Source: Mesorhizobium sp. DCY119 (GTDB lineage Bacteria > Pseudomonadota > Alphaproteobacteria > Rhizobiales > Rhizobiaceae). Taken from it: DNA of 64,000 nt. Made by a program: the position numbers and the translations under genes. How positions within the stretch are numbered: the first letter of the stretch is position 1; the number at the start of each line of letters is the position of its first letter. The stretch covers positions 4,526,501-4,590,500 of the forward strand of contig NZ_CP031834.1 in NCBI RefSeq assembly GCF_003590645.1, read 5' to 3'. A model generated the notes under the pieces. The model did no database searches. It worked only from the letters and a program-made list of their open reading frames with translations, and was not told the DNA's origin. Below, piece by piece: positions 9,429 to 50,748 of this stretch.

Positions 9429-9601
9429 GTGGTGCTCCCGAATTCGGTGCTGAATGGTTATGACAAGGTGTGAACGGTCGCAAGGGGCACTTTGGACCTT
9501 GAGCGAAAACTGCCGGCAGCGCCGGTAGGAGCGTCCTTCGAGGATCAGCGTCTCCCTCCCGCTTGAGGGGGGAGAATACGCCGGCGCGCTTCATCCCCAA
9601 C

Positions 9602-9643
9602 CTCCCTCATCCTGAGGTGCGAGCGAAGCGAGCCTCGAAGGAC
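9602..9643. repeat. 42-base dispersed palindromic repeat, single copy
   Basis: This unit starts CTCCCTCATCCTGAGG and ends CTCGAAGGAC. It is identical over 42 bases to 49197-49238 and to the reverse complement of 49085-49126. The inner GCGAGCGAAGCGAGC is self-complementary. A degenerate partner fragment is visible near 9532-9543. Confidence 0.85.
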
Positions 9644-10153
9644 GCACCTGTTCATCGCCACGCCCTGCATCGCAGTCTGGCCATTGTCAAAGAGCCGGGA
9701 AAGACGGGCGGCCGAAATCTCGCTCATCTTTTGTATTTTCTGCGATCTTTCGACCGCCCGTCTCGGTGTCTGTCCCGAAGTCGGCCGGTCACAACGCCCG
9801 CTCCATGTACATTCCATGGACAAGACGCCGCGGGTTCTCCGCATGGTTTTGGGCAGTGGCATTTGCGCCGTGCTCGTTCCACGCCGACCTGTGTCGGGCC
9901 CTCGGGTCCCTGGCTACCACACCAGGGCGGGAGGTCACCGCCACTCCCCCTTGATCCCGGTTCCAGACCCGGTCCCGCAGGAGCGATGGAGGGATTATGG
10001 GGGTAGCGTTTGGGGTGGGGATAAATCGGGCGTGAAAAAATGTGTGGGATGAGTGGAAACAATGGGTTGAGTGGAAATCGGGTGGAAATCTTTCCCCCGC
10101 TGCGTGAGCTTCGGGTTCGGCAGTTCTGCACCGCTGCGGCCTTCATCGATGGT

Positions 10154-10406
10154 CCGGCATGGATCCGTCGCAAGAGCGACCCCCGCATGCGCTTCGCTCA
10201 TGCTGCGCCCGGGATGACGAACTGCATGTTAGGTCTTCGCTAATCGTCAACGCTGGCTCGCGGCTGTTACGTCTCCGGCGTGGTAGCCGCGCCTGCTGTG
10301 CGGCAACAACGTTTGCGATTAGCGGTGACACCCCTCTCTTCGTCATCCCGGGCGGAGCATGAGCGAAGCGCATGCGGGGGTCGCTCTTGCGACGGATCCA
10401 TGCCGG
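10154..10406. repeat. 67-base inverted repeat pair
   Basis: The arms at 10154-10220 and 10340-10406 are reverse complements with one mismatch over 67 bases, separated by 119 bases. They carry the GGATCCGTCGC, GCATGCGCTTCGCTCATGC and CCCGGGATGAC blocks. The last of these also ends the repeats at 25527-25660 and 52483-52604. There is no gene or transposase between the arms. Confidence 0.9.
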
Positions 10407-10699
10407 AACGGAGAAGAGCTTCGGCGGTGCAGACTGCAACAGCGTCAGGGCCGGGCCACGCCAGACGATGCGCTGACCAATAGATCCCGGATAACCTCCG
10501 CTCCGCTCCGGTTTCCGGGATGACGATTTCACGGCTATCACCGCTAATCTCTCAGAGTTGATGACGCATTGCGTCCCTCGTCACCAATCGTAAACGCCGG
10601 CCATGCCGCGATAGCTCGGCTGGCGCCCAACACTTTGGTGCGATGGACAAGACCTGCAGGGTTCGATACGCCTCATGAAGCAATCAGTCGGAGGACATC

Positions 10700-12888: not shown

Positions 12889-13002
12889 GGCAGCCCTTTT
12901 CGGTCCTTGGTCGCGTTTCAGATAATGCAGATCACGGCCAGAACCAAGCGCGCAAAACGGCAATCGACTTCGTCGGAAAGCGCGGTCGAGAAAAATGACG
13001 GC

Positions 13003-13302
13003 TCAGGAAGCCAACGCCCTGCGTGCAGCGTCGGGTTCTTTTTCAATGATACGCAACAGCGTTGTCATGGCGGCATCGGGCTTCCTGCGGCCTTGCTCGT
13101 AGGATTCCATCGTACGTGCCGAAATGTGGAATTCCGCCTCGAAAGCCTTGGTGCTGCGCGCCACTCTGCGGCGAATTTCACGAATTCTCTCGGGCGTCAA
13201 AACATCGGCCGGAACTTCATAGCTTTCGACGTCAATCTCGCCGCGAAGATGCGCCGCCATCTCCTCAAAGGCTTCGACGAGATCCGCTCCTACCCTGCTC
13301 AT
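13003..13302 (-). CDS. Antitoxin of a HigBA-like toxin-antitoxin pair (Xre-type HTH)
   Basis: This 99-residue protein carries a helix-turn-helix at about residues 40-95 (REIRRRVARS, then ISARTMESYEQGRRKP), typical of Xre-type antitoxins. It should bind the toxin and repress the operon. Its start overlaps the toxin stop by 4 bases (13299-13302), and the toxin-first order matches HigBA. A candidate operator lies upstream of the toxin. Confidence 0.8.
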   Translation of the reverse strand: MSRVGADLVEAFEEMAAHLRGEIDVESYEVPADVLTPERIREIRRRVARSTKAFEAEFHISARTMESYEQGRRKPDAAMTTLLRIIEKEPDAARRALAS

Positions 13303-13625
13303 TTCCCACTTCCTTTCAAACTGTCGATGGCCGCCAGAATCGCCTTGCGCTGATCGGGGGAGAGATCGTCGCGTTCATTCTTCGGATAGGCCGTCATCAT
13401 ATAGATAGCCGTTTCGACGGCGACATAGTAGATGACCCGCCCGCCGCCGCTCTTGCCTCTTCCCGGCAACGCGAAGCGAGCCTTTCGAACGCCGCGCAGG
13501 CCCTTGATGACGGGATGAGCTTCAGGTGCCGCCGCGAGATCGAGTTCGATGCGCCGCATGGCCGGATCGTCCAGCCCCATCCGTTCCATCGCACGAGTGT
13601 AGGGCTTCAGCCGAACGATCCTCAT
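13299..13625 (-). CDS. RelE/HigB-type toxin
   Basis: This 108-residue basic protein has the RelE/ParE-like pattern of a small mRNA interferase: MRIVRLKPYTRAM, then GVRKARFALPGRGKSGGGRVIYY, then AYPKNERDDLS. The last motif (YxKNExxDLS) is typical of HigB/RelE2 toxins. It is the first gene of the pair and is translationally coupled to the antitoxin. Confidence 0.82.
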   Translation of the reverse strand: MRIVRLKPYTRAMERMGLDDPAMRRIELDLAAAPEAHPVIKGLRGVRKARFALPGRGKSGGGRVIYYVAVETAIYMMTAYPKNERDDLSPDQRKAILAAIDSLKGSGK

Positions 13626-13635
13626 TTCACGATTT

Positions 13636-13666
13636 TACTACAAACGAGAACTACGTCAATGTAGTA
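13636..13666. promoter_or_regulatory. Candidate autoregulatory operator of the toxin-antitoxin operon
   Basis: CTAC-6-GTAG (13651-13664) is a dyad just upstream of the toxin start (13625). An additional TACTAC at 13636-13641 matches GTAGTA at 13661-13666. The position fits repression by the antitoxin. It is short, so chance is possible. Confidence 0.4.
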
Positions 13667-13740
13667 GCAACGATGGAGGAAGCCTGCTCTTGCTTGTTGG
13701 CCGATTTTACCGGACGGTGCCTGCTTCGAGAAAGCAGAAC

Positions 13741-14637
13741 ATGATCGACAAGCTGGAATTCTTCATAGCTCTCGCCAAGCAGCAGCATTTCGGCCGCGCG
13801 GCGGAAGAATGCGGCGTGACGCAGCCGACGCTTTCGGCCGGCATCAAGCAGCTCGAGGAGGCGCTGGGCGTGATGCTGGTGCAGCGCGGTTCGCGCTTCC
13901 AGGGGCTGACGCCGGAAGGCAGCCGCGTGCTGGAATGGGCGCGGCGCATCGTCGGCGATGCCCGCACCATGCGCGAGGAGATGCGCGCGGCGCGCCACGG
14001 ACTTGCCGGCCATGTGCGGATTGCCGCGATCCCGACCGCGCTTGCCATGACGCCGCGCCTGACCACGCCGTTTCGCGAAAAACACCCGGGCGTGACCTTC
14101 TCGATCCTGTCGCGCACGTCGATCGAGGTGCTGACCTTGCTGGAAAACTTCGAGATCGATGTCGGCATCAGCTATCTCGACAACGAGCCGCTGGGGCGCG
14201 TGGCGACCGTGCCGCTCTATTCGGAGCGCTACCAGCTCATCACCGCCGCAGGTAACCCGTTTTCCGAAAGCAAGACTGTGACATGGGCGGAGGTGTCCGC
14301 CTTGCCGCTGTGCCTGCTGACCCCCGACATGCAGAACCGGCGCATCATCAACCAGCATCTCGGCGAGGCCGGCGCGGAAGCGCATCCGACGCTGGAATCG
14401 AACTCGATGATCGTGCTGTTTTCGCATATCCGCACCGGAAAATGGTCCTCGATCATGCCGCTCAACCTTGCCGAGACCTTCGGCTTCGCCGAGCCGATCC
14501 GCGCCATACCCATCGTCGAGCCGGATGCCAGCCATCTCGTTGGACTGGTTGCCGCGCATCGCGAACCGCATACGCCGCTGGTTTCAGCACTGCTGCACCA
14601 GGCCCGGATATTGGCCGCCGATCTTTCCCTTCTTTGA
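13741..14637 (+). CDS. fdsR: LysR-family regulator of formate dehydrogenase
   Basis: This 298-residue LysR regulator has its winged HTH at residues 1-60 (MIDKLEFFIALAKQQHFGRAAEECGVTQPTLS region) and a C-terminal effector domain. It sits directly upstream of, and on the same strand as, the fds operon, as in other proteobacteria where FdsR controls formate dehydrogenase. The start at 13741 is chosen because the family begins with MIDKLEFF; the frame is open from 13690. Its stop codon overlaps a LysR-type dyad. Assignment as FdsR rests on position and family. Confidence 0.85.
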   Translation: MIDKLEFFIALAKQQHFGRAAEECGVTQPTLSAGIKQLEEALGVMLVQRGSRFQGLTPEGSRVLEWARRIVGDARTMREEMRAARHGLAGHVRIAAIPTALAMTPRLTTPFREKHPGVTFSILSRTSIEVLTLLENFEIDVGISYLDNEPLGRVATVPLYSERYQLITAAGNPFSESKTVTWAEVSALPLCLLTPDMQNRRIINQHLGEAGAEAHPTLESNSMIVLFSHIRTGKWSSIMPLNLAETFGFAEPIRAIPIVEPDASHLVGLVAAHREPHTPLVSALLHQARILAADLSLL

Positions 14638-20790: not shown

Positions 20791-21639
20791 CTATGCCCGC
20801 TTCCAGCCTTTCCGGATGTGGGCATATCCCTCGCGATAGACCGCTTCCGGGCTTTCGGCAAAATCGCGCCAGACTTTCGTTGCCGCCGCCAGATCCTTCA
20901 GCCCACGCCCGAACGCCTCGATGGTGAGCCAGCCGTCGTAACCGCTCTCCTTGATCGCGGCGAAGGTCTTCTTCCACGGGATGTCACCGCGCCCCGGCAC
21001 GCCGCGATCGTTTTCCGAAATATGGATGTGGGCGATGTTGCGGACGTGCTTGGTATAGGCGCCGATGGGGTCGGCTTCCTCGATATTGGCGTGGAAGGTG
21101 TCGTACATGGCGCGGATGTTGGGGTGCCCGATCTCGTCGACATGGGCCGAGAGATCAGCCATCGTGTTCAAGAGATAGCATTCGAAGCGGTTCAGCGCCT
21201 CGAGCCCGATGGTGACGCCATGCTGGCCGGCATGGTCGCCAATGGCGCGCTGCGAGGCGACCGAGCGTTTCTTTTCGGCAGAAGTCGGGCCGACGCCTGA
21301 AAACTGGCCGAGCGTTGAATGAAGCGGGCCGCTGAGTGTTTTCGCACCCAGCGCCTCGGCGCAATCGATCGCCCATTTCATGTAGGTCACGCCGGCCTTG
21401 CGGGTGGCGGCACTGGGTGAGATCAGATTCATCGCGGGATCGCCCATGGCCGACACGGCAGTGCGCTCAAGGCCGATGCGATCGAGCATTTCGCCAAGCC
21501 GCCTGTAGTCGTCGGGCGTGCCTTCGAAGATCGGGATCTCGACGCCGTCATAGCCGGTCGCCTTGATGTCGCGCAGCAGTTTTTGGTGCTTTCCCGTGAC
21601 GTTGGTCGTCCACAGGAACATGCAGAAGCCGATTTTCAT
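20791..21639 (-). CDS. Sugar epimerase of the D-tagatose/D-psicose 3-epimerase type
   Basis: This 282-residue TIM-barrel protein of the xylose-isomerase-like family has the metal ligands expected for keto-sugar 3-epimerases. They are Glu in LEALNRFECYLLNT, Asp in YDTFHANIEE, His in IHISENDRG and Glu in LTIEAFG. The start MKIGFCMFLW at 21639 follows AGGGGAC. The chemistry is C3 epimerisation of ketohexoses or related sugars, but the true substrate is not visible from context. It converges on fdsD with almost no spacer. Confidence 0.83.
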   Translation of the reverse strand: MKIGFCMFLWTTNVTGKHQKLLRDIKATGYDGVEIPIFEGTPDDYRRLGEMLDRIGLERTAVSAMGDPAMNLISPSAATRKAGVTYMKWAIDCAEALGAKTLSGPLHSTLGQFSGVGPTSAEKKRSVASQRAIGDHAGQHGVTIGLEALNRFECYLLNTMADLSAHVDEIGHPNIRAMYDTFHANIEEADPIGAYTKHVRNIAHIHISENDRGVPGRGDIPWKKTFAAIKESGYDGWLTIEAFGRGLKDLAAATKVWRDFAESPEAVYREGYAHIRKGWKRA

Positions 21640-21959
21640 TTGTCCCCTCCGATGGCCGCTCTGGTGGCGGTTCCACGGCAATCTAGCGGGGAAAATCTGG
21701 TAGGACCAGATGGTGCAGGCCGAAATCTTGGGCAGAGGGCGCATGGGTGCTCTGATGGACCTGAGCGGAGGAAAGACCCCCACCCCTAACCCCTCCCCAC
21801 AAGGGGGAGGGGGACGATCTCGTCGCCTTAGCCATCAAGAACGGTGAAGGTTGGGGCCGGGCAGCCTTGCAGCAAAGTTCCCTCCCCCTTGTGGGGAGGG
21901 GTTAGGGGTGGGGGTCATCTCAAAGGCAATGCGCCGCCGAAAAGGAAGCGAGATGACGA
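21640..21959. other. Intergenic region carrying a repeat pair
   Basis: The 320 bases between the epimerase and patD contain the promoter side of the epimerase gene and the inverted repeat at 21776-21915. Nothing else is recognised. Confidence 0.5.
21776..21915. repeat. Inverted repeat pair, CCCCTCCCCACAAGGGGGAGG family
   Basis: The arms ACCCCCACCCCTAACCCCTC... (21776-21813) and its reverse complement (21880-21915) face each other about 66 bases apart. The same unit recurs as pairs at 24351-24500 and 37183-37304. Confidence 0.88.
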
Positions 21960-23387
21960 TCACCCATGGGCAAACATGACATGCCGCACCGCTGTATAAT
22001 CTTCCAGCGCGTAGAGCGACATGTCCTTGCCGTAGCCGGACTGCTTCAGCCCGCCATGCGGCATCTCGTTGGTGAGCATGAAGTGGGTGTTGATCCAGGT
22101 GCAGCCATATTGCAGCCGTGCGGCGGTGGCCATGGCGCGCGACACGTCCTTGGTCCAGACGGACGAGGCGAGGCCGTAGTCGGAATCATTGGCCCAGTTG
22201 ACGGCTTCGTCGGCGTCGGAGAAGCGGGTGACGGAGACGACCGGGCCGAAGACCTCGCGGCGCACGATCTCGTCTTCCTGCAAGGCGCCGGCAACCACGG
22301 TCGGCTGGTAGAAGAAGCCCCCGCCCTCACCCGGCTTGCCGCCGGTGGTGATCTCGACATGCTTCAGCTCCGAGGCGCGCTCGACAAAACTGGCGACGCG
22401 GTCGCGCTGGCGGCTGGAGATGAGCGGGCCGATCTCGTTTTCGGTGTCGTCCGGCTGGTTGAACTTGATGGTCGAGACGGCCGAGGACAGGTCTGCGACG
22501 AGTTTTTCGTAGATTTTCTTGCCGGCATAGATGCGGCAGGCGGCGGTGCAGTCCTGGCCGGCATTGTAATAACCGAAGGCGCGCAGGCCGTTCACCACCG
22601 CTTCCAGATCGGCGTCGTCGAAGACGATGACCGGCGCCTTGCCGCCGAGTTCCAGATGCGTGCGCTTGACCGATTTGGCGGCCGCCTGCAGCACCTTCTT
22701 GCCGGTGGCGACATCACCGGTGATCGAGATCATGTTGATCCTGGGGTGGTTGATCAGCGCGTTGCCGACGCTTTCGCCGCGCCCGAGCACGACATTGACC
22801 ACGCCTTCGGGCAGGATCTCGGCCATGATCTTCGCCAGCTTCAGCGCCGTCAGCGGCGTCTGCTCGGACGGCTTGAACACCACCGTGTTGCCGCCGCCGA
22901 TGGCCGGGGCGAGCTTCCACGCCATCATCATCAGCGGGTAGTTCCACGGCGCAATGGAGGCGACGATGCCGATCGGGTCGCGACGCACCATGGATGTATG
23001 ACCGGGCAGATATTCGCCGGCCACCACGCCCGGCATGGAGCGCACCGCGCCGGCAAAGAAGCGGTAGCAATCGACAATGGCGGGGATTTCATCGTTGAGC
23101 ACCGCATTGATCGGCTTGCCACAATTCAGCGCCTCGAGCTTGGCGAAGCTTTCCGCCTCGGCCTCGATGCGGTCGGCGATCTTCAGGAGATAGCCGGAGC
23201 GTTGCGCCGGCGTGGTGCGCGACCACTCGGTGAAAGCCTTCTCGGCGGCGGCAACCGCCGCCTCGATCTGCGACTGGCTCGCCTCGGGCAGATTGAGGAT
23301 GATCTGGCCGGTCTTGGGGTTGAGGATCGGCTCCTCGGTCTCGGTGCCCTTTTCGAAGCGCGAACCGATCAGCATCTCGGTGTCCAT
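21960..23387 (-). CDS. patD: Gamma-aminobutyraldehyde dehydrogenase
   Basis: This 475-residue NAD-dependent aldehyde dehydrogenase oxidises 4-aminobutyraldehyde (from putrescine) to GABA. The catalytic Cys280 sits in [14 protein letters not shown], the general base Glu247 in LELGGKAP, and the Asn in APWNYPL at 149. C-terminal [21 protein letters not shown] closely matches E. coli YdcW/PatD. It is the last gene of a ydcSTUVW-like operon, which supports a polyamine role. The start at 23387 follows AGGGAG. Confidence 0.9.
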
Positions 23388-23421
23388 GTAAACTCTCCCT
23401 GAATTGGTGTCTCAAGAGAGC

Positions 23422-23500
23422 GAGTAGTGAGTAGTGAGTGGTGAATAGGTTTGATCGCGTTGCTTTTTCCTATTCACTATTCACTACTCCCTATTCACTC
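23422..23500. repeat. Inverted GTAGTGA/TTCACTA repeat between ydcV and patD
   Basis: The left arm carries GAGTAGTGAGTAGTGAGTGG and runs to GAATAGG. The right arm is CCTATTCACTATTCACTAC and onward. Together they can form a long hairpin. The same family recurs at 46864-46977. Confidence 0.85.
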
Positions 23501-23503
23501 ATT

Positions 23504-24319
23504 TCACTTCCCCGCACCCGCTATCTGGTCGCCGTCGCGGGTCAGGTAATAGGCGGCAAGGATGGGCAGGAACGTCACCAGCACGACGACCATGGCCACG
23601 ACATTGGTGACCGGGCGCTGGCGGGGCCGCACCAGTTCCTCCAGCATCCAGATCGGCAGCGTCTGCTGCTGGCCGGCGGTGAAGGTGGTGACGATGACCT
23701 CGTCGAAGGACAGCGCGAAGGCGAGCATGCCGCCGGCCAGAAGTGCGGTGCCGATATTGGGCAGCACGACATGGCGGAATGTCTGGAAGCCGTCGGCACC
23801 GAGGTCCATCGACGCCTCTATCAGCGAGCCGGAGGTGCGGCGGAAGCGGGCGACCGCGTTGTTGTAGACCACGACGACGCAGAAGGTGGCGTGGCCGAGA
23901 ATGATCGTCCAGAACGAGAACGGAATTTCGGCCAGGCTGAAGGCTGAGCGGAGCGCAATGCCGGTGATGATGCCGGGCAGCGCGATGGGCAGGATGACCA
24001 GCAGCGAGATCACCTCACGGCCGAAGAATTTCGTCTGGCTGACGGCGGCGGCACACAGCGTGCCGAGCACCAGCGCAATCGCCGTCGACACCGCCGCGAC
24101 CTTGACCGACAGGCCAAGGGCTGCCCACACATCAGGCCGGTTCCAGGCAACGGCGAGCCATTGCGTGGTGAGACCGGGCGGCGGCCACTGATAGCTCTTT
24201 TCCTCCGTCGTGAAGGCATAGACGAAGATCAACAGGATCGGCAGATGCAGGAACAGCAGGCCTGCGCCGGCGGCGATCTTGAGGCCGAGCGGGGCGGATT
24301 GATGGCGGTCAGAGCGCAT
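23504..24319 (-). CDS. Polyamine-type ABC transporter permease (PotC/YdcV-like)
   Basis: This 271-residue inner-membrane permease is the second half of a spermidine/putrescine-type channel. Membrane segments begin near residue 14, and the EAA-type loop [15 protein letters not shown] lies at about residues 172-187. It starts at ATG 24319, with GAGG five bases upstream; a GTG at 24332-24334 is less likely. The order with its neighbours matches E. coli ydcV. Confidence 0.88.
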
Positions 24320-24350
24320 GGGAACCTCGCGCACTTACGCTGACGTATTT

Positions 24351-24500
24351 ACCCCCACCCCTAACCCCTCCCCACAAGGGGGAGGGGAATCTTTCCACCT
24401 CGCCCTCGGCAGGGACACACTCAGACAAAGAAAAATTCGGCAAGAATGAATGCATGAGAGATCCCCCTCCCCCTTGTGGGGAGGGGTTAGGGGTGGGGGT
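24351..24500. repeat. Inverted repeat pair between ydcU- and ydcV-like genes
   Basis: The arms 24351-24388 and 24464-24500 belong to the CCCCTCCCCACAAGGGGGAGG family. They lie inside the operon, between the upstream permease stop (24514) and the downstream permease start (24319). Confidence 0.88.
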
Positions 24501-24513
24501 CATCTCCGAAGAA

Positions 24514-25482
24514 CTAAAGCGCATCGAACGCCCCCATACGCTTGGCGGCCCAGAGATAGATCCCCATGATCACGACCGGGACCACGGTAAAAGCCGCCGC
24601 CAGCGGAATGTTGCCCGCCGTGCCCTGCTGGGCATAGACGGCCTGCCCGATGAACAGCCGCGACGTGCCGATGATCTGCGGGATGATGTAATCGCCCAGC
24701 GTCAGCGAGAAGGTGAAGATGGAGCCGGCGACGATGCCCGGCAGGGCCAGCGGAAACAGCACGTTGCGGAAGGTCTGGCCGGGGGTTGCCCCGAGATCGG
24801 ACGAGGCTTCGACCAGATTGCCCGGCACGCGCTCGAGGGCTGCCTGTATCGGCAGGATCATGAAGGGCAGCCAGACATAGACGAAGACGATGAAGGTGCC
24901 GGTGAAGGAAACCGACAGCGAATTGCCGCCGACATAGGGCAAAGACAGCCAGGCATCGAGCAGCCACGACAGATGCAGCTTGGCGAACAGCCAGGTGAGA
25001 ATGCCTTCCTTGGCGAGGATGAGTTTCCAGGCATAGATCTTGACCAGATAGCTCGACCACAGCGGCAGCATGATGCCGAGATAAAACAGCGCCTTCCATT
25101 TGCCGCGGGCATAACGCGCCGCAAAATAGCCGATGGGAAAAGCCACGACCGCCGAGGCCAGCGTGACGCAGGCGGCCATGGTCACCGTGCGGACGATGAT
25201 GTCGAAATTGGCCGGGCGCAGCAGCTCGCCATAGGTCTTCAGCGTGAATTCGCGGTTGATGAGGCCGGAAAAATCATCGATCGAAAAGAAGCTCTGCAGC
25301 AGCAGTGCGAACAGCGAGCCGAGATAGACGACGCCGAGCCACAGAAGCGGCGGCGTCAGCATCAAGAGCAGAAGCAATTTCGGCTTGCGCCAGAAGATAT
25401 CCGACAACGCCCCCGCAATACCGCCGCGGCTGGGCAGGATGACCGGCGCTGTATGGGCCTGAAGGGCGGTGGAGGTATTCAT
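24514..25482 (-). CDS. Polyamine-type ABC transporter permease (PotB/YdcU-like)
   Basis: This 322-residue permease has a long cytoplasmic N-terminus, a first helix near residues 35-58, and the EAA-type loop VEASSDLGATPGQTFRNV. It partners the PotC-like gene. The start MNTSTALQ at 25482 is chosen because the frame from 25572 runs into an intergenic repeat; GAGGGATG lies upstream. Confidence 0.88.
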   Translation of the reverse strand: MNTSTALQAHTAPVILPSRGGIAGALSDIFWRKPKLLLLLMLTPPLLWLGVVYLGSLFALLLQSFFSIDDFSGLINREFTLKTYGELLRPANFDIIVRTVTMAACVTLASAVVAFPIGYFAARYARGKWKALFYLGIMLPLWSSYLVKIYAWKLILAKEGILTWLFAKLHLSWLLDAWLSLPYVGGNSLSVSFTGTFIVFVYVWLPFMILPIQAALERVPGNLVEASSDLGATPGQTFRNVLFPLALPGIVAGSIFTFSLTLGDYIIPQIIGTSRLFIGQAVYAQQGTAGNIPLAAAFTVVPVVIMGIYLWAAKRMGAFDAL

Positions 25483-25526
25483 CCCGCATCCCTCCAACGC
25501 CGGCGCTTGGGCTGCCCCAACCGAGA

Positions 25527-25660
25527 CGTCATCCTGGTCAAGGAAGCGGAGCGACCGCGAGCCGGGACCCATTCCGGAACGCCGTCTGGCACTGGACCGC
25601 TACGGAATGGGTCCCGGATAGCCGCTCTTCGCTCCGCTTCAAGCGGCTTCCGGGATGACG
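25527..25660. repeat. Nested inverted repeat between ydcT- and ydcU-like genes
   Basis: The outer ends are CGTCATCC and GGGATGACG. Perfect 15-base inner arms CCGGGACCCATTCCG (25563-25577) and its complement (25603-25617) make a large cruciform-like unit. The same arrangement occurs at 52483-52604. Confidence 0.88.
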
Positions 25661-25684
25661 CGGTGCGGGTGTGTGCGGCTGCGC

Positions 25685-26680
25685 TCATGCCGGCTCGTCC
25701 ATCAAATGAAGATCGGCCGGCAGCCAGACGAGCGAGACATTTGCGCCGTCGTCCGGCACGGGCTGGCCGGCGGGCGTTATGACATGCAGGCGGGTGCCTT
25801 CGGCATCGACGGTGAGCCGGTTGGTCGCGCCGAGAAAGCTGCGCGCGCGCACGGTGCCGGACACGCCCTGCCCCGCCTTTTCGGCCAGCCTGATCTTCTC
25901 CGGCCGCAGGCTCGCCCAGCGGCGCTTGCCGCCATGGCGGGCGACGAAATCGGGCGACAGAACGTTGGAGGAGCCGACGAAATCGGCGACGAAACGCGAT
26001 TGCGGCCGCTCGTAGATATCCTGCGGCGTGCCGATCTGCATGATGCGGCCATCGTTGAAGACGGCAACGCGGTCGGCCATGGACAGCGCCTCGCCCTGAT
26101 CGTGGGTGACGAAGACGAAGGTGATGCCAAGCGCGCGCTGGAGCAGCTTGAGCTCCTCCTGCATGTTTTCGCGCAGCTTGAGATCGAGCGCGCCGAGCGG
26201 TTCGTCGAGCAGCAGCACGCGCGGCTTGTTGACCAGCGCACGCGCCAGCGCCACGCGCTGACGCTGGCCGCCGGAAAGCTGGCTCGGGCGGCGCGCGCCA
26301 TAGCCGGGAAGCTGCACCAGCTTCAAGGCGTCTTCTGCCTGTTTGGCACGCTCCGTGCGGCCCACGCCCTTGACCATCAGCCCGTAGGCGACATTGTCGA
26401 GCACGTTGAGATGCGGAAACAGCGCGTAGTCCTGAAACACCGTGTTGACGTTGCGGCGATAGGGCGGGACGCCCTCGGCGCGCTCGCCGAAGATGGAAAT
26501 CGAACCCGCCGTCGGCTGCTCGAAGCCGGCGATCAGGCGCAGGCAGGTGGTCTTGCCCGAACCCGACGGGCCGAGCATGGCGAAGAACTCGCCGGGCCGG
26601 ATATCGAGGTCGACCGCATCGACGGCGCGCACGGCGCCGAAGTGGCGGGAGACTTTTTCGAAGGAGACGGCTGTGGTCAT
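25685..26680 (-). CDS. Polyamine-type ABC transporter ATP-binding protein (PotA/YdcT-like)
   Basis: This 331-residue ATPase energises polyamine uptake. Walker A GPSGSGKTT lies near residue 36, signature LSGGQRQR near 136, and Walker B VLLLDEP and HDQGEALSMADR follow. The C-terminal TOBE region is about 270-331. The start MTTAVSFEKV at 26680 matches the E. coli YdcT start; a frame from 26695 adds five residues. Confidence 0.9.
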   Translation of the reverse strand: MTTAVSFEKVSRHFGAVRAVDAVDLDIRPGEFFAMLGPSGSGKTTCLRLIAGFEQPTAGSISIFGERAEGVPPYRRNVNTVFQDYALFPHLNVLDNVAYGLMVKGVGRTERAKQAEDALKLVQLPGYGARRPSQLSGGQRQRVALARALVNKPRVLLLDEPLGALDLKLRENMQEELKLLQRALGITFVFVTHDQGEALSMADRVAVFNDGRIMQIGTPQDIYERPQSRFVADFVGSSNVLSPDFVARHGGKRRWASLRPEKIRLAEKAGQGVSGTVRARSFLGATNRLTVDAEGTRLHVITPAGQPVPDDGANVSLVWLPADLHLMDEPA

Positions 26681-26747
26681 GGCAATGATGTCCAAAGGTG
26701 CTCAGTCGGGATCGATACGGCCCGATCGCCGATTGCTGAGGTCGGCG

Positions 26748-26880
26748 CTGCCCCTCATCCGACCCTTCGGGCCACCTTCTCCCCGTGAACGGGGAGAAGG
26801 AAGAAGCGTCAGCGTCGCGGCCAGCCTTCCTCTCCCCGTCACTATACGGAGAGAGGATGCCGGCAGTCAGGTGAGGGGCG
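26748..26880. repeat. Imperfect inverted repeat between ydcS- and ydcT-like genes
   Basis: CCCCTCATCCGACCCTTCGGGCC... on the left and CAGGTGAGGGG on the right frame inner units TTCTCCCCGTGAACGGGGAGAA and CTCTCCCC/GGAGAG. The pair is more degraded than others in the window. Confidence 0.7.
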
Positions 26881-26904
26881 GCGCAAGCGCCGGAAGTTAA
26901 CTGC

Positions 26905-28062
<1,158 letters not shown>

Positions 28063-28169
28063 GAACTTTCTCCCATTTGAAGGGGCCGCTCTGGCTGGCG
28101 ACGTTAATCCCTGAAATGAAAGGTGATCTGAATCCGAAGCATTCGCAAACGGATTTATCAGAAACACGA

Positions 28170-28186
28170 TATCGGTTTTTCCGATA
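28170..28186. promoter_or_regulatory. LysR-type dyad upstream of the polyamine operon
   Basis: TATCGG-5-CCGATA is a perfect inverted repeat that includes the T-N11-A LysR signature. It lies about 108 bases before the ydcS-like start and immediately after the upstream LysR gene. Confidence 0.55.
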
Positions 28187-28188
28187 GG

Positions 28189-29100
28189 TTACGGTCTTTG
28201 CCGTGTTTGCCGCTGCGATTGGGCAATGCCTATGAAATCGCGGGCTGCCTGCGGCAGGCTGGAACCGCGTCGCCAGACCATGCCGACTTGCACGACCGGC
28301 AGCGAGCCGGAGATATCGCGCGACTCGATGCGGTCGCCTTCCAGCGACCACGGCCGGTAGACCAGATCGGGCAGCAGCGCCACGCCGGCGCCGGTGGCGA
28401 CGAGGCTGCGCACCGCTTCCACGGAGCGCGTGCGGAAGGCGACATGCGGGCGCGCACCGAGCGCCACCAGCAGCTTGCCGGTGTTCTCCTCGATTTCGTC
28501 GACGGTGAGCATGATCAGCGGTTCGCTGACGATATCGTTGATACCGATGATGTCGGCGCTGGCCAGATGATGGCCGAGCGGCAGCCACAGGCGGTAAGGC
28601 GAGACCTCGAGGATTTCGGCCTGCAGCGCCATGCGGTCGCGCAGGTTGGAGATGACCATGACGGCGACATCCAATTCACCGCCGACCAGCAGGTGCTCGA
28701 GATAGTCGCCATTGTCCTCGATGGCCGACACGTCGATCGAGGGAAAGGCGCGGCGGTAGCGGGCAAGCAGGTCGGACAGCACATAGCCGGCGACCAGCGA
28801 TGTGACGCCGAGCTGAAGCCTGCCCGTCGCGCGCTCCTTGTCGTCGGAAAAGGTGCGGCGGGCGTCGGACACGTCAGCCAGAATCTTGGTGGCATGGCGC
28901 AGGAACTGATGGCCCTTGTGGGTGATGTTCAGCCCGCGCGGATGGCGCTCAAAAAGCTCGACGCCGAGGTCGCGCTCAAGATCCTTGATCGCCTCGGTGA
29001 CTGCTGATTGCGAGATGGAAAGGTTCTGCGCAGCACCGGAAACCGTGCCCTGCTCTGCGACCGCGACGAAGAACTGCAACTGCCTGATGGTGAATGCCAT
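28189..29100 (-). CDS. LysR-family regulator, likely controlling the adjacent polyamine operon
   Basis: This 303-residue LysR regulator has an N-terminal HTH (MAFTIRQLQFFVAVAEQGTVSGAAQNLSISQSAV at residues 1-34 region) and a substrate-binding domain. It lies upstream of, and co-oriented with, the ydcS-like gene. A perfect T-N11-A dyad separates them, so local control is likely. The start at 29100 is the family start; a frame from 29115 adds five residues. Confidence 0.83.
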   Translation of the reverse strand: MAFTIRQLQFFVAVAEQGTVSGAAQNLSISQSAVTEAIKDLERDLGVELFERHPRGLNITHKGHQFLRHATKILADVSDARRTFSDDKERATGRLQLGVTSLVAGYVLSDLLARYRRAFPSIDVSAIEDNGDYLEHLLVGGELDVAVMVISNLRDRMALQAEILEVSPYRLWLPLGHHLASADIIGINDIVSEPLIMLTVDEIEENTGKLLVALGARPHVAFRTRSVEAVRSLVATGAGVALLPDLVYRPWSLEGDRIESRDISGSLPVVQVGMVWRRGSSLPQAARDFIGIAQSQRQTRQRP

Positions 29101-40460: not shown

Positions 40461-42898
40461 CCTTGCCATCCCATGCCCAGATCGTCGTCATCGGCGGTGG
40501 CATCATCGGCTGCTCGACAGCCTACCATCTGGCGCGCGACCACAAGGCCGATGTCGTGCTGCTGGAACAAGGCCGGCTCACTTCGGGTTCTACATGGCAT
40601 GCAGCGGGTCTGGTCGGGCAATTGCGCTCGTCGGCCTCGATCACGCGCGTGCTGAAATATTCGGTCGATCTCTACAAGCGGCTGGATGAGGAAACCGGGC
40701 TGGCCACCGGCTGGAAGATGACCGGCTGCCTGCGGCTTGCCACCAACCAGGACCGCTGGACCGAGTTCAAGCGGCTGGCAACCACGGCCAAAAGCTTCGG
40801 CATGGAGATGCATCTGGTCTCGCCCGAGGAGGTCAAGCGCATGTGGCCGCTGATGGAGACCTCCGATCTCGTCGGCGCGAGCTGGCTGCCAACCGACGGC
40901 CAGGCGAGCCCTTCGGACATCACGCAGTCGCTGGCTAAGGGCGCGCGCATGCATGGCGCCAAGCTTTTCGAGGAGGTGCGCGTCACCGGCTTCGGAATGA
41001 AGGACGGCCGCATCACTGCGGTGAAGACGAACAAGGGCGACATCGCCTGCGAAAAGGTGGTGAACTGCGCCGGCCAGTGGGCGCGGCAGGTGGGCGCTAT
41101 GGCCGGCATAAACGTGCCGCTGCAGCCGGTAAAGCACCAGTACATCATCACGGAGAAGATCGACGGGCTTTCCACCGACGCACCGACGATCCGCGATCCC
41201 GACCGGCTGACCTATTTCAAGGAAGAGGTCGGCGGCCTCGTGATGGGCGGCTACGAGCCGAACCCGCAGGGCTGGACGACGGGAGACGTGCCGAACGACT
41301 GGGAATTCCGCCTGTTCGATGACGATTTCGACCATTTCGAGCAGCATATGACGCAGGCCATCGCCCGCGTGCCGGCGCTCGAAAAAGTGGGCGTCAAGCA
41401 GATGATCAATGGGCCGGAAAGCTTTACGCCGGACGGCAATTTCATCCTCGGCGTCGCGCCGGAATGCTCGAACATGTTCGTCGGCGCCGGATTCAACGCC
41501 TTCGGCATCGCCTCGGGCGGCGGCGCGGGCTGGGTGCTGGCGCAGTGGGCGGTCGACGGCGAGGCGCCGCTCGATCTGTGGACCGTCGACATCCGCCGCT
41601 TCTCCGGCCTGCACCGCGACCGGCAATGGGTGTCGGATCGCACGTTGGAAGCCTATGGCAAGCACTACACGATCGGCTTTCCGCATGAGGAATATCAGTC
41701 CGGCCGGCCGCGCATCGTCTCGCCGCTCTATGAGCGGCTGAAGAAGCATCGCGCCGTGTTCGGCTCGAAACTCGGCTGGGAGCGGCCGAACTGGTTCGCG
41801 CCCGCAGGCATCGAGCCCGAGGATATCTATTCCATGGGCCGGCAAAACTGGTTCGAGCCGGTGGGCTACGAGCACCGCCATGTGCGCGAGGCGGTCGGTA
41901 TCTTCGACCAGTCGTCATTCGCCAAATACGAGATGAGCGGCCCCGACGCGCTGAAGGCGCTGGACTGGATCTGCGCCAACGATGTCAACAAGCCGGTCGG
42001 GCGGATGACCTACACCCAGCTTCTCAACACGCGCGGCGGCATCGAGGCCGATATCGTCGTGGCGCGGCTTGCCGATGAGAAGTTCTACATCGTCACCGGC
42101 ACCGGCTTCCGCACGCATGACCTGTCGTGGATCAGCGACCACATTCCCGCCGGCCTCGACGTGACACTGACCGACGTAACCGAGGAATTCGGAACGCTGT
42201 CGCTGATGGGGCCGCGGGCGCGGGACGTTCTGGAGGCTATAACCGAGGCCGACGTGTCCAATGCGGAATTCCCTTTCGGCCATGTCCGGGAGATCGTTAT
42301 TGCCGGCCACACGGTTCGCGCCTTGCGCGTCACCTATGTCGGGGAACTAGGCTGGGAACTGCATGTGCCGATAGGGGCTGCCGGTGAAATCTTCGACGCG
42401 CTGATGGCGGCGGGTAAGCCCCACGGCATCCGCCCGGTCGGCTACCGCGCGCTGGAATCGCTGCGGCTGGAAAAAGGCTACCGCGCCTGGGGCGCCGACA
42501 TCACGCCCAACGACACGCCACAGGAGGCCGGACTGGGCTGGGCGGTGAAGCTGAAGAAGAACACTGATTTCCTCGGCCGACGCGCCCTGGAAGGGCTGAG
42601 TGGCGAGCCGCTGAAGAAGCGCTTCGCCGGCTTCATCGTTGACGACCCGGACGTGGTGCTGCTCGGCCGCGAAACCATCCTGCGCAATGGCGAGCCGGTC
42701 GGCTACCTCTCCAGCGGCGGCTTCGGCTACACGCTCGGCAAACCGGTCGGTTATGGTTATGTCCGCAATGTTGACGGCGTCAGCGACGAATTTTTGACCA
42801 GCGGCGATTATGAACTGGTGGTGGCCATGGAGCGGACCAAGGCACGCATCCATCTCAAGCCGTTTTATGACCCGGCAATGGCGAAGGTGAAGGCTTAA
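40457..42898 (+). CDS. Dimethylglycine/sarcosine-dehydrogenase-like FAD enzyme with GcvT domain
   Basis: This 813-residue two-part enzyme has an FAD DAO domain at residues 1-400 and a GcvT-type tetrahydrofolate-binding domain at about 430-813. Rossmann loop GGGIIG lies near 13-18, and His48 in TWHAAG matches the covalent-FAD histidine of dimethylglycine dehydrogenases. It demethylates dimethylglycine or sarcosine, passing the methyl to folate. The length is typical for the family. It ends a transport and catabolism operon. Confidence 0.88.
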   Translation: MTLPSHAQIVVIGGGIIGCSTAYHLARDHKADVVLLEQGRLTSGSTWHAAGLVGQLRSSASITRVLKYSVDLYKRLDEETGLATGWKMTGCLRLATNQDRWTEFKRLATTAKSFGMEMHLVSPEEVKRMWPLMETSDLVGASWLPTDGQASPSDITQSLAKGARMHGAKLFEEVRVTGFGMKDGRITAVKTNKGDIACEKVVNCAGQWARQVGAMAGINVPLQPVKHQYIITEKIDGLSTDAPTIRDPDRLTYFKEEVGGLVMGGYEPNPQGWTTGDVPNDWEFRLFDDDFDHFEQHMTQAIARVPALEKVGVKQMINGPESFTPDGNFILGVAPECSNMFVGAGFNAFGIASGGGAGWVLAQWAVDGEAPLDLWTVDIRRFSGLHRDRQWVSDRTLEAYGKHYTIGFPHEEYQSGRPRIVSPLYERLKKHRAVFGSKLGWERPNWFAPAGIEPEDIYSMGRQNWFEPVGYEHRHVREAVGIFDQSSFAKYEMSGPDALKALDWICANDVNKPVGRMTYTQLLNTRGGIEADIVVARLADEKFYIVTGTGFRTHDLSWISDHIPAGLDVTLTDVTEEFGTLSLMGPRARDVLEAITEADVSNAEFPFGHVREIVIAGHTVRALRVTYVGELGWELHVPIGAAGEIFDALMAAGKPHGIRPVGYRALESLRLEKGYRAWGADITPNDTPQEAGLGWAVKLKKNTDFLGRRALEGLSGEPLKKRFAGFIVDDPDVVLLGRETILRNGEPVGYLSSGGFGYTLGKPVGYGYVRNVDGVSDEFLTSGDYELVVAMERTKARIHLKPFYDPAMAKVKA

Positions 42899-45928: not shown

Positions 45929-46869
45929 GCTTTCTTTGCGCCATCCCTCTCGCCGCCTCGCTGTTTTCGTCCTGTGCGGGCGAAGCGCCGCTGGCCGTCG
46001 GCTATGTCGAGGGCGACTATGTTCTGCTGGCGCCGATCGAGGTGGCGCAGGTGCGTTCTATCGCGGTGAAGCGCGGCGACCGCGCCGAGCCCGGCAAGCC
46101 GATCGCGCTTATGGAAGACGCCGATGCGAAGATCGCCGTCGCGCAGGCAGAAGCCGCCCTTGCCCAGGCACAGGCCGAGCTTGCCGACCTTCAGATCGGC
46201 AAGCGGCCCGAGGAAATCGCCGTGCTGGAAGCTTCAGTGCAATCGGCCAAGGCGCAGGCCGACGACGCCCAGCGCACATTGAGCCGCACGCAAGACCTGA
46301 CAAAGCGGGGCGTCGCCACGCAGGCGCAGCTGGACGATGCGACTACGAAAATGGAGGTCGCGGCAGCCGCAATCGGACAGAGCACGGCCAATCTTGCAGT
46401 CGGGCGCCTGCCGGCACGGCCCGAGACGATCAAGGCCGCGGAGAACGCGGTGAAGGTCGCGCAAGCCAAGCTCGAGCAGGCGCGCTGGCAGCTTTCCAAG
46501 CGGACCATCGAAGCGCCCGCACCCGGCCGCGTCAGCGACGTCATCCGCAATCCAGGCGACGTCGCCGGACCGTCCGCGCCAGTGATTTCCATGCTGCCGG
46601 ACGGAGCGGTGAAGCTGAAGGTCTATGTGCCGGAAGCGCAGTTCTCGTCGGTCAAGATCGGCACCGAATTGTCGGTGCGCTGCGACGGGTGCCGCCCGGA
46701 TTTGAAGGCGAAGGTGAGCTATGTCTCGCCCGACCCTGAGTTCACGCCGCCGGTCATCTACTCGCTGGAGACCCGCCAGAAGCTGGTCTACCTCGTCGAA
46801 GCGCGGCCGGAAGGCGATGCGACGCCGTTGCAGCCGGGGCAGATCGTGGATGTGAGTTTAGGGGAGTAG
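45925..46869 (+). CDS. HlyD-family membrane fusion protein of an ABC exporter
   Basis: This 314-residue periplasmic adaptor has an N-terminal hydrophobic segment with SSC near residue 17, which may be a lipidation site. Biotinyl-lipoyl-like halves frame a long coiled-coil Ala/Gln/Glu-rich hairpin at about residues 70-195. C-terminal beta sequences follow. It should bridge the inner-membrane ABC unit to an outer-membrane channel. It is cotranscribed with the TetR gene. Confidence 0.85.
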   Translation: MSFLCAIPLAASLFSSCAGEAPLAVGYVEGDYVLLAPIEVAQVRSIAVKRGDRAEPGKPIALMEDADAKIAVAQAEAALAQAQAELADLQIGKRPEEIAVLEASVQSAKAQADDAQRTLSRTQDLTKRGVATQAQLDDATTKMEVAAAAIGQSTANLAVGRLPARPETIKAAENAVKVAQAKLEQARWQLSKRTIEAPAPGRVSDVIRNPGDVAGPSAPVISMLPDGAVKLKVYVPEAQFSSVKIGTELSVRCDGCRPDLKAKVSYVSPDPEFTPPVIYSLETRQKLVYLVEARPEGDATPLQPGQIVDVSLGE

Positions 46870-46977
46870 TGAGTAGTGAGTAGTGAGTAGTGAGTAGTGA
46901 GTAGTTAAATCCGGATTGAGCGCGGCCATGTCAAAGATAGTTTCCTCTACTCGCTATTCACTACTCACTATTCACTG
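46864..46977. repeat. GTAGTGA tandem and inverted repeat in the exporter operon
   Basis: About six GTAGTGA-like units at 46864-46905 overlap the HlyD stop. They face inverted TTCACTACTCACTATTCAC-like sequence at 46945-46977. The same family lies at 23422-23500. It is not a CRISPR: there are no spacers. Confidence 0.85.
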
Positions 46978-49764: not shown

Positions 49765-50748
49765 ATGCTTTCCCGCGTTTTCGGCTTTGGCCGCCGTCCC
49801 TTCGAATCCCTGTCGGAACAGGAAATCCTGGCGCTTGCAATCTCGTCGGAAGAAGACGATGCGCGCATCTACCGCGCCTATGCCGACGGCCTCTCGGAGC
49901 AATATCCAGACTCGTCCAAGGTGTTCGAGGAAATGGCGGAGGAAGAAGACGGCCATCGCGCCGTGCTGATCGAACTCCACCGCAAGCGCTTCGGCGAGCG
50001 CATTCCGCTGATCCGGCGCGAGCATGTGCGCGGCTGGTATGAACGCAGGCCCGACTGGCTGGTGCGGCCGCTCGGCCTCGACAAGGTGCGGGCCATGGCC
50101 GAGCAGATGGAGGACCAGGCCTACCGCTTCTATATCGAGGCGATAAAGCGGACCTCCGATGCTTCGACGCGCAAGCTGCTCGGCGATCTGGCGGCTGCCG
50201 AAAAAGTGCACGAGTCGCTGGCCGTTCGGCTTGGCCAGAAGCACCTGACCGACGACGTGAAGTCGCAGGAAGCTGCGACCGAGCGGCGGCAATTCATCCT
50301 GACCATGGTGCAGCCGGGACTGGCGGGCCTGATGGACGGTTCGGTGTCGACGCTGGCGCCGATCTTTGCCGCAGCCTTTGCCACGGGCGACACATGGCAG
50401 ACATTTCTGGTCGGCCTGTCGGCCTCGGTGGGTGCCGGCATTTCCATGGGCTTCACCGAAGCGGCGCATGATGACGGCAAGATTTCGGGCCGCGGCTCGC
50501 CGATCATCCGGGGGCTGGCTTCCGGCATCATGACGGCGATCGGCGGGCTTGGACATGCCCTGCCCTATCTGATCGCCGATTTCTGGACGGCAACGACGAT
50601 CGCCGCGATCGTGGTCTTCATCGAGCTCTGGGCCATCGTCTTCATCCAGAACCGCTTCATGGAAACGCCCTGGCTGCGCGCCACGCTGCAAGTGGTGCTC
50701 GGCGGCGCGCTGGTGCTGGCGGCAGGTGTGCTGATCGGGAATGCTTAG
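49765..50748 (+). CDS. mbfA: Membrane-bound ferritin-like iron exporter
   Basis: This 327-residue protein joins an N-terminal ferritin-like (erythrin/VIT1 group) domain, with ExxH motifs EEEDGHRAV and EKVHESLAV, to a C-terminal VIT1-type membrane region of about five helices (about 185-327). MbfA proteins of Agrobacterium and Bradyrhizobium export iron and protect against H2O2; Irr represses them in low iron. The perfect ICE just upstream supports the name. The stop overlaps the convergent ABM stop. Confidence 0.92.
   Translation: MLSRVFGFGRRPFESLSEQEILALAISSEEDDARIYRAYADGLSEQYPDSSKVFEEMAEEEDGHRAVLIELHRKRFGERIPLIRREHVRGWYERRPDWLVRPLGLDKVRAMAEQMEDQAYRFYIEAIKRTSDASTRKLLGDLAAAEKVHESLAVRLGQKHLTDDVKSQEAATERRQFILTMVQPGLAGLMDGSVSTLAPIFAAAFATGDTWQTFLVGLSASVGAGISMGFTEAAHDDGKISGRGSPIIRGLASGIMTAIGGLGHALPYLIADFWTATTIAAIVVFIELWAIVFIQNRFMETPWLRATLQVVLGGALVLAAGVLIGNA

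Follow-up and report, generated by a model that had tools for sequence, protein, structure and literature searches.

The window analysed here is a 64,000-nucleotide (nt) stretch of Mesorhizobium sp. DCY119 (contig NZ_CP031834.1, positions 4,526,501 to 4,590,500), and its subject is a polyamine operon of five genes with palindromic DNA at each of its gene junctions. The operon lies on the minus strand, from 28062 to 21960 of the window, and is of the ydcSTUV-patD type for putrescine uptake, a name that we take to stand for the gene order binding protein, ATPase, two permeases and aminobutyraldehyde dehydrogenase. The genes are called potD, potA, potB, potC and ALDH, and the palindromic elements E1 to E5, in order of transcription. 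The first gene, potD (26905-28062), is an open frame of 385 amino acids that encodes a ydcS-like substrate-binding protein (NF041888, YdcS, E 6e-195, under the curated cut-off). It is followed by the ydcT-like gene for the ATP-binding protein, potA (25685-26680; PotA models, E 2.5e-108 and 1.4e-102, both under cut-off), and by two permease genes, the ydcU-like potB (24514-25482; PotB model, E 2.4e-39, under cut-off) and the ydcV-like potC (23504-24319; PotC model, E 5.6e-41, under cut-off). The last gene, ALDH (21960-23387), encodes an aminobutyraldehyde dehydrogenase of the patD/ydcW type (NF010000, E 2e-244, above cut-off).

The elements are likewise read on the minus strand. E1 (26748-26880), in the potD/potA gap (26681-26904), is a RIME-like mosaic palindrome consisting of two local hairpins and an outer stem, with a fold z score of -8.1. 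E2 (25527-25660), in the potA/potB gap (25483-25684), is a CGTC-tagged head-to-head pair resembling repetitive extragenic palindromes (REPs; z -7.0). E3 (24351-24500) occupies the potB/potC gap (24320-24513) as a long inverted repeat, with 45-nt arms (96% complementary) around a 60-nt loop (z -10.9), and E4 (23418-23500) fills the potC/ALDH gap (23388-23503) with inverted arrays of a 7-nt unit of the GTGAATA/GTGAGTA type (z -8.8). E5 (21775-21916), in the gap after ALDH, is a second E3-family element with perfect 37-nt arms. A repeat finder places the arms of E4 at 23418-23449 and 23469-23500, those of E3 at 24351-24395 and 24456-24500, and those of E2 at 25557-25581 and 25598-25622; it returns no arm pair for E1, which folds at -84.2 kcal/mol. 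For each of E1 to E4, none of 200 shuffles gives an equally stable RNA fold. The sequence-only reading of this DNA had announced a large inverted repeat at all four junctions, and a strong palindrome is indeed found at each, by the repeat finder for E2 to E4 and by folding for all four. Three of the sites stand where they had been placed, and the start of the fourth palindrome shifts from 23422 to 23418; the repeat at 26748-26880 folds strongly, but it is a mosaic of hairpins whose inverted-repeat score, 33, falls below the threshold of 34. That the four come from different families also holds: BLAST comparison of E1 to E4 with one another gives nothing at E≤0.01, and the sole match among the elements joins E3 and E5.

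All of these elements are repeated in the genome. With the two strands, and likewise the two arms of an element, tallied separately, the matches number at least 83 for E1 (best 40 of 97 candidates scored), at least 32 for E2 (best 40 of 57), at least 117 for E3 (best 40 of 91) and 21 for E4 (16 of 16). The E3 family comprises 35 paired elements in the DNA examined from this genome, a set that is no census, many of its loci having been obtained as E3 matches; the arms are alike, the loops are of several types, one element is in reverse arrangement and the unit usually measures 136-144 nt. The repeated part exceeds the palindrome by about ten bases on most sides. Between the repeat and the downstream start, three of the four operon gaps contain about 20-55 nt of unique sequence.

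Known systems resemble these elements in part. The Rhizobium-specific intergenic mosaic elements (RIME; Osteras et al. 1995, as given in PMC2573895) share with E1 an intergenic position and a mosaic build of two local palindromes and an outer stem. Of 72,556 plasmid records, 197 contain matches to E1, most of them from Rhizobium (112) and Sinorhizobium (55); among the 15 listed, those of S. meliloti are 75% identical over 92% of the length. The CGTC-tagged REP dimers of alphaproteobacteria are described in PMC3733652 as having no dedicated transposase, a stem of 8-9 base pairs (bp) and a usual loop of 4-5 nt, with exceptions named. The sense strand of E2 similarly begins with CGTCATCCCGG and ends with GACG, and its two inward-facing units are intergenic; within each unit, by eye, ATCCCGG faces CCGGGAC (6 of 7 pairs) across a loop of about 30 nt, in contrast to the usual 4-5 nt. 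No REP-type transposase is found in this genome either (Y1_Tnp, PF01797, E≤0.01, one family tested), while the same model matches in 6 of 14 control genomes, in 5 of them above cut-off. E3 recalls the REP doublets known as REPINs (PMC3116915) in its two inverted conserved arms, its less conserved spacer and its dispersal as a unit; it differs in arms of about 40 nt and in a genome with no match to the Y1 transposase. A REPIN driven by a REP-associated tyrosine transposase (RAYT) of the genome itself is therefore unsupported.

Placement in the genome and among relatives

Placement was assessed in 864 kb of this genome, namely the window and 40 systematic 20-kb stretches, with junctions counted by a home-made gene caller (used also for relatives and for the gaps behind binding-protein genes) and a junction called element-bearing at a score of at least 34 or with homology to E1-E3. 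Forty of 485 gaps of 30-1500 nt pass the inverted-repeat score, against 0.0 per shuffle set and one coding control. Element-bearing junctions number 43 of 822, 12 of them inside the window. When labels are permuted across the sample with junction type preserved, 5 of 20,000 permutations reach five in succession, as in the operon (P = 0.0077 when permuted within the window only), values that are optimistic because the window was picked as remarkable; runs in the other 40 stretches reach two at most.

The elements are unevenly distributed by gap type. Outside the window they occur at 17 of 551 junctions between codirectional genes, 10 of 105 between convergent genes and 4 of 104 between divergent genes, and among gaps of 150-250 nt in this genome at 8 of 62, 8 of 14 and 1 of 36, respectively. 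In relatives, whose rows share ancestry so that their counts and P values are descriptive, the score is passed by 79 of 429 codirectional, 10 of 75 convergent and none of 61 divergent gaps. The element lies closer to the upstream stop than to the next start in 74 of 79 cases in relatives and in 16 of 23 in this genome (6 show the opposite). This placement agrees with the general distribution of REPs, mostly between unidirectional and convergent genes, as reported in PMC3733652. The operon itself is a hot spot: across 80 relatives, 67 of 314 operon junctions pass the score, compared with 12 of 353 codirectional neighbours at the same loci. By site, the passing junctions are 31 of 74 at potD/potA, 11 of 78 at potA/potB, 4 of 80 at potB/potC and 23 of 80 at potC/ALDH. 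The sequence-only reading was thus right that placement is not random.

Its further argument, that random insertion should not strike each junction once, holds only in part. The four-gap statistics cover 75 loci, 6 of 81 having been set aside with junctions that are not all readable. Gaps of at least 50 nt are found in all 75 at potD/potA, in 17 at potA/potB, in 7 at potB/potC and in 40 at potC/ALDH. If gaps filled independently, 0.85 loci would be expected with all four, and three are seen (the window, L060 and L096; P 0.035), of which the window and L060 alone carry a palindrome at all four junctions. The probability of at least one such locus among the 75 is 0.61 under independent filling; the run of five, by contrast, is rare under permutation. 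The four-fold pattern, being near this expectation, needs little beyond raised fill rates, and it is the raised fill rates in the putrescine operon that are left to explain.

Compact ancestors, insertion and turnover

In most relatives the middle junctions are compact. In 61 of 79 loci the genes potA and potB share an ATGA overlap, and potB and potC overlap by an identical 11 nt in 74 of 81, including Thalassospira, Rhizobium and Hoeflea. These states speak against a single cause for all four hairpins, as the earlier claim would have it, and rule out that the operon simply inherited a repeat at every junction. In the tree the window is sister to Mesorhizobium soli (L066 and L070; support 1.0), both members of which have no spacer at either middle junction. 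Long potB/potC gaps appear on at least five branches with differing repeats, and another genome, G016, has again a different element there; G001 (below) and G016 are the two that entered the analysis out of ten additional stretches. At potA/potB, another long palindrome fills the gaps of a Mesorhizobium group (L083, L095, L074, L119, L064, L089, L091, L103 and L126), and L056, L068, L073 and L080 have short spacers without it.

The only same-genus genome available, G001, is about 93-94% identical to the window and collinear over its entire length. E3 and E4 are present in it and E2 and E5 are absent. E3 is common to the window and G001 and absent from M. soli L066 and L070; E4 sits at an old position, and E2 is missing where the ATGA overlap of potA and potB remains in G001. 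According to the junction sequences, the first codons of potB in the window are unlike those of G001 and lie beyond E2. The simplest order of gains would begin with E4, with E3 following once the lineage had parted from M. soli and E2 once it had parted from G001. At potD/potA a different palindrome with unrelated flanks replaces E1, although the flanking proteins are 97.9-98.7% identical.

This loss and replacement of spacers extends beyond the operon. With spacers compared by block coverage, collinearity with G001 is lacking in 12 of 20 palindromic gaps, versus 5 of 49 others (Fisher 4e-5), in a sample of the window and three 20-kb stretches chosen for holding elements, not at random; with the window excluded, the counts are 4 of 8 versus 2 of 24 (P 0.023). 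The window and G001 are separated by 14 break points, several of which lie, by eye, at or adjoining stop or start codons. Another inverted array of the E4-type 7-nt unit, at 46868-46976, stands in a gap that is collinear with G001. Three further differences between the two genomes are recorded here in their own right. At 50745-50748 two convergent genes overlap at their stop codons, and G001 has a palindromic spacer of 249 nt with both ends seemingly intact. The divergent gap at 9429-10699 measures 1271 nt, contains several palindromes (69-nt arms at 10153/10339) and is 192 nt long in G001. The roughly 800 nt at 12944-13741 contain one frame resembling a RelE toxin and another resembling an MqsA antitoxin (the latter below the Pfam cut-off), and correspond to 116 nt in G001.

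One filled and empty pair bears on the mode of insertion. In G001, AAGGCTTA flanks a 155-nt RIME-type insert on both sides, its first inserted base completing a stop codon, and the window has a single copy at 42890-42897. At the filled potB/potC junctions, the start of the overlap stands twice in all seven. The upstream gene has ATGCGCT close to its end, and a stop (GTGA, GTAA or TTAG) comes next, always in the same codon position; the downstream gene starts with ATGCGCTCTGA, changed at one place in L096. The presence of ATGCGCT on both sides is partly forced by the two genes, and at E2 only ATGA is visible on both sides. A duplication of about 8 bp exceeds the ATGA overlap and approaches the overlap of 11 nt, so that neither gene of an overlapping pair need lose its end. 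Among the titles listed from the open-access library searched, none dealt with spacer insertion at overlapping genes or with target duplication by RIME.

RNA structure at the junctions

The potD/potA junction stands apart from the others. In the 75 readable loci the potD/potA gap measures 73-322 nt, and a perfect stem of at least 8 pairs with a short loop lies within 100 nt after potD in 58 of the 75 genomes, compared with 2.7 in shuffles; by eye, its sequence differs between lineages. The first 80 nt after potD have a median z of -1.41 (n=75). The remaining codirectional gaps give -0.74 (n=168; P 5e-7), convergent ones -1.52 (n=28) and divergent ones -0.17 (n=46). Of the 56 binding-protein genes of three Pfam families in this genome, potD included, 54 have a codirectional neighbour, and the gaps behind such genes are longer (median 76 versus 38 nt, P 1e-4). 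Among gaps of 70-500 nt, the 32 after binding-protein genes reach z -1.78, versus -0.52 in 206 others (P 3.5e-5). By eye, two of the 14 most structured of these 32 (L272 and L317) look RIME-type and the others resemble ordinary hairpins; an excess of inverted repeats behind binding-protein genes is not significant (5 of 32 versus 12 of 206, P 0.06). Conservation of position suggests a useful role for a stem-loop behind the binding-protein gene, supplied here by E1.

A precedent lies in malE-malF of Escherichia coli, where an intercistronic REP acts as a stabiliser. As in that system, the E1 hairpin stands directly behind the binding-protein gene of an ATP-binding cassette (ABC) operon; the E1 site differs in that its sequence changes between two genomes of one genus. 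An intercistronic regulatory element is named as early as 1982 in the title of Higgins et al., which PMC3116915 lists among its references.

Signs of RNA-level function were sought at the elements as well. If a stem were selected as RNA, its mismatches should be preferentially G.U. Sense-strand G.U and A.C mismatches number 29 and 30 in this genome and 82 and 89 in relatives, with 20 and 16 and 15 and 12, respectively, in convergent gaps; selection through a G.U excess is therefore not seen in either set, at low power. Terminator-like sites (a G+C stem and a T run) number 6 in 21500-28400, against 4.9 in shuffles, and none falls in the repeats. Rfam gives no match above the gathering score in the whole window, and at E≤1 only four microRNA-family matches, far below their gathering scores. 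At potC/ALDH, E4-type units are countable on both arms in 24 of 31 long spacers, the window included, the other seven having been set aside with no countable 7-nt units. The arms change together in all 24, five genomes having GTGA with mostly TCAC and 19 having GCGA with mostly TCGC (three with one odd unit), and the GTGA type is scattered over the tree. Arm copying or replacement of the whole spacer would fit this co-change as well as selection.

Interpretation

We consider it probable that the palindromes are retained REP- or RIME-like insertions, gained singly, turning over fast and probably functional mainly behind the first gene. Comparison among relatives shows that the compact state of the middle junctions is ancestral and that elements entered separately in several lineages, leaving the gene ends intact. 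Insertion can apparently duplicate about 8 bp of target, cleanly in one case and presumably elsewhere, and with a duplication about as long as the overlap an overlapping pair would be split without loss, which would help to explain why survivors lie exactly between genes. Measured against one genome, palindromic spacer is lost or replaced far more often than ordinary spacer. Elements would be eliminated from promoter gaps and from ribosome-binding regions, and would be tolerated where they follow a stop codon. Behind potD, where position is conserved, a stem-loop would be useful, RIME-type elements being one of several interchangeable suppliers, and it probably shields the potD message from 3'-5' decay or attenuates read-through, which would leave more binding protein than transporter. 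Hairpins at the remaining three junctions would for the most part be tolerated, their side effect being that translational coupling is lost.

Several observations weigh against this account. The operon hot spot and the five elements in a row cannot be accounted for by tolerance alone, and E4 persists at one junction in many species, with co-changing arms that selection for pairing would also give. The structure after potD is modest, with z ≤ -2 in 15 of 75 loci and whole-gap z ≤ -3 in 27 of 75. The G.U comparison has little power on long stems, which may tolerate mismatches, and its control is tiny (7 tRNAs with 4 G.U and 0 A.C). The 8-bp duplication is clean at one filled and empty pair only, and there the window may instead have lost the insert by slippage between 8-bp repeats. 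The estimate of turnover relies on one same-genus genome, no REP-type transposase was found in the one family tested, and the account does not cover the unique 20-55 nt before the downstream starts.

Selection of an RNA hairpin at every junction, which would stop 3'-5' decay or attenuate transcription and so grade the output of the five genes, is unlikely. It draws on the hot spot, the run of five and the very stable folds, on the position of most elements just past stop codons, on the hairpin behind binding-protein genes, and on the conserved position and co-changing arms of E4; protective RNA structures also shape operon stoichiometry in E. coli, mostly inside coding regions, as PMC5927463 reports. 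Set against these are the compact middle junctions of most relatives, the lack of E2 in G001, the missing G.U preference and an all-four state near independent filling. The selection for RNA hairpins proposed by the sequence-only reading finds support at potD/potA, where the hairpin looks selected (58 of 75); over the elements as a whole it has neither a G.U excess nor terminator-like sites in its favour.

An exchange of spacers as blocks, by homologous recombination between strains and not by element insertion, is quite unlikely. The whole E1 spacer with its flanks is non-homologous between the window and G001 beside nearly identical gene ends, and the Mesorhizobium tree shows filled potA/potB junctions interspersed with empty ones, a pattern that two forms of the potB 5' end follow, both as exchange would have it; yet the gene ends beside several break points are not diverged, and at 42890-42897 the genomes differ by a single element with a target duplication. 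Very unlikely is a mover with a preference for intercistronic DNA (gene overlaps, for example, or stop/start motifs) and the operon as its preferred landing place: despite at least five branches on which the identical 11-nt overlap gained an element, several break points at stop or start codons and a hot spot that filtering alone leaves unexplained, the targeting preference raised earlier is needless for the middle junctions, where only survivors are visible and insertions inside genes would vanish, and different families occupy the same junction with no candidate mover in the one transposase family tested.

A further reading is offered tentatively as possible. Mobile palindromes would serve as an exchangeable supply of hairpins, with the site behind the binding-protein gene selected and its sequence swapped among close relatives; overlapping, translationally coupled genes would be split undamaged if a duplication of about 8 bp, longer than the usual ATGA overlap, is regular, leaving them separately adjustable; the putrescine operon would be a repeated hot spot; and the arms would be kept alike by a process at the DNA level, not by selection on RNA.

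Intergenic palindromic repeats have so far been read either as regulatory hairpins or as useless mobile DNA. The putrescine operon, with its filled and empty states in many species, lets the two views be separated junction by junction, and the fast turnover of same-genus spacers and the hairpin rule behind binding-protein genes provide further handles. In conclusion, the insertions in this operon suggest a simple route by which overlapping genes may be separated without loss.

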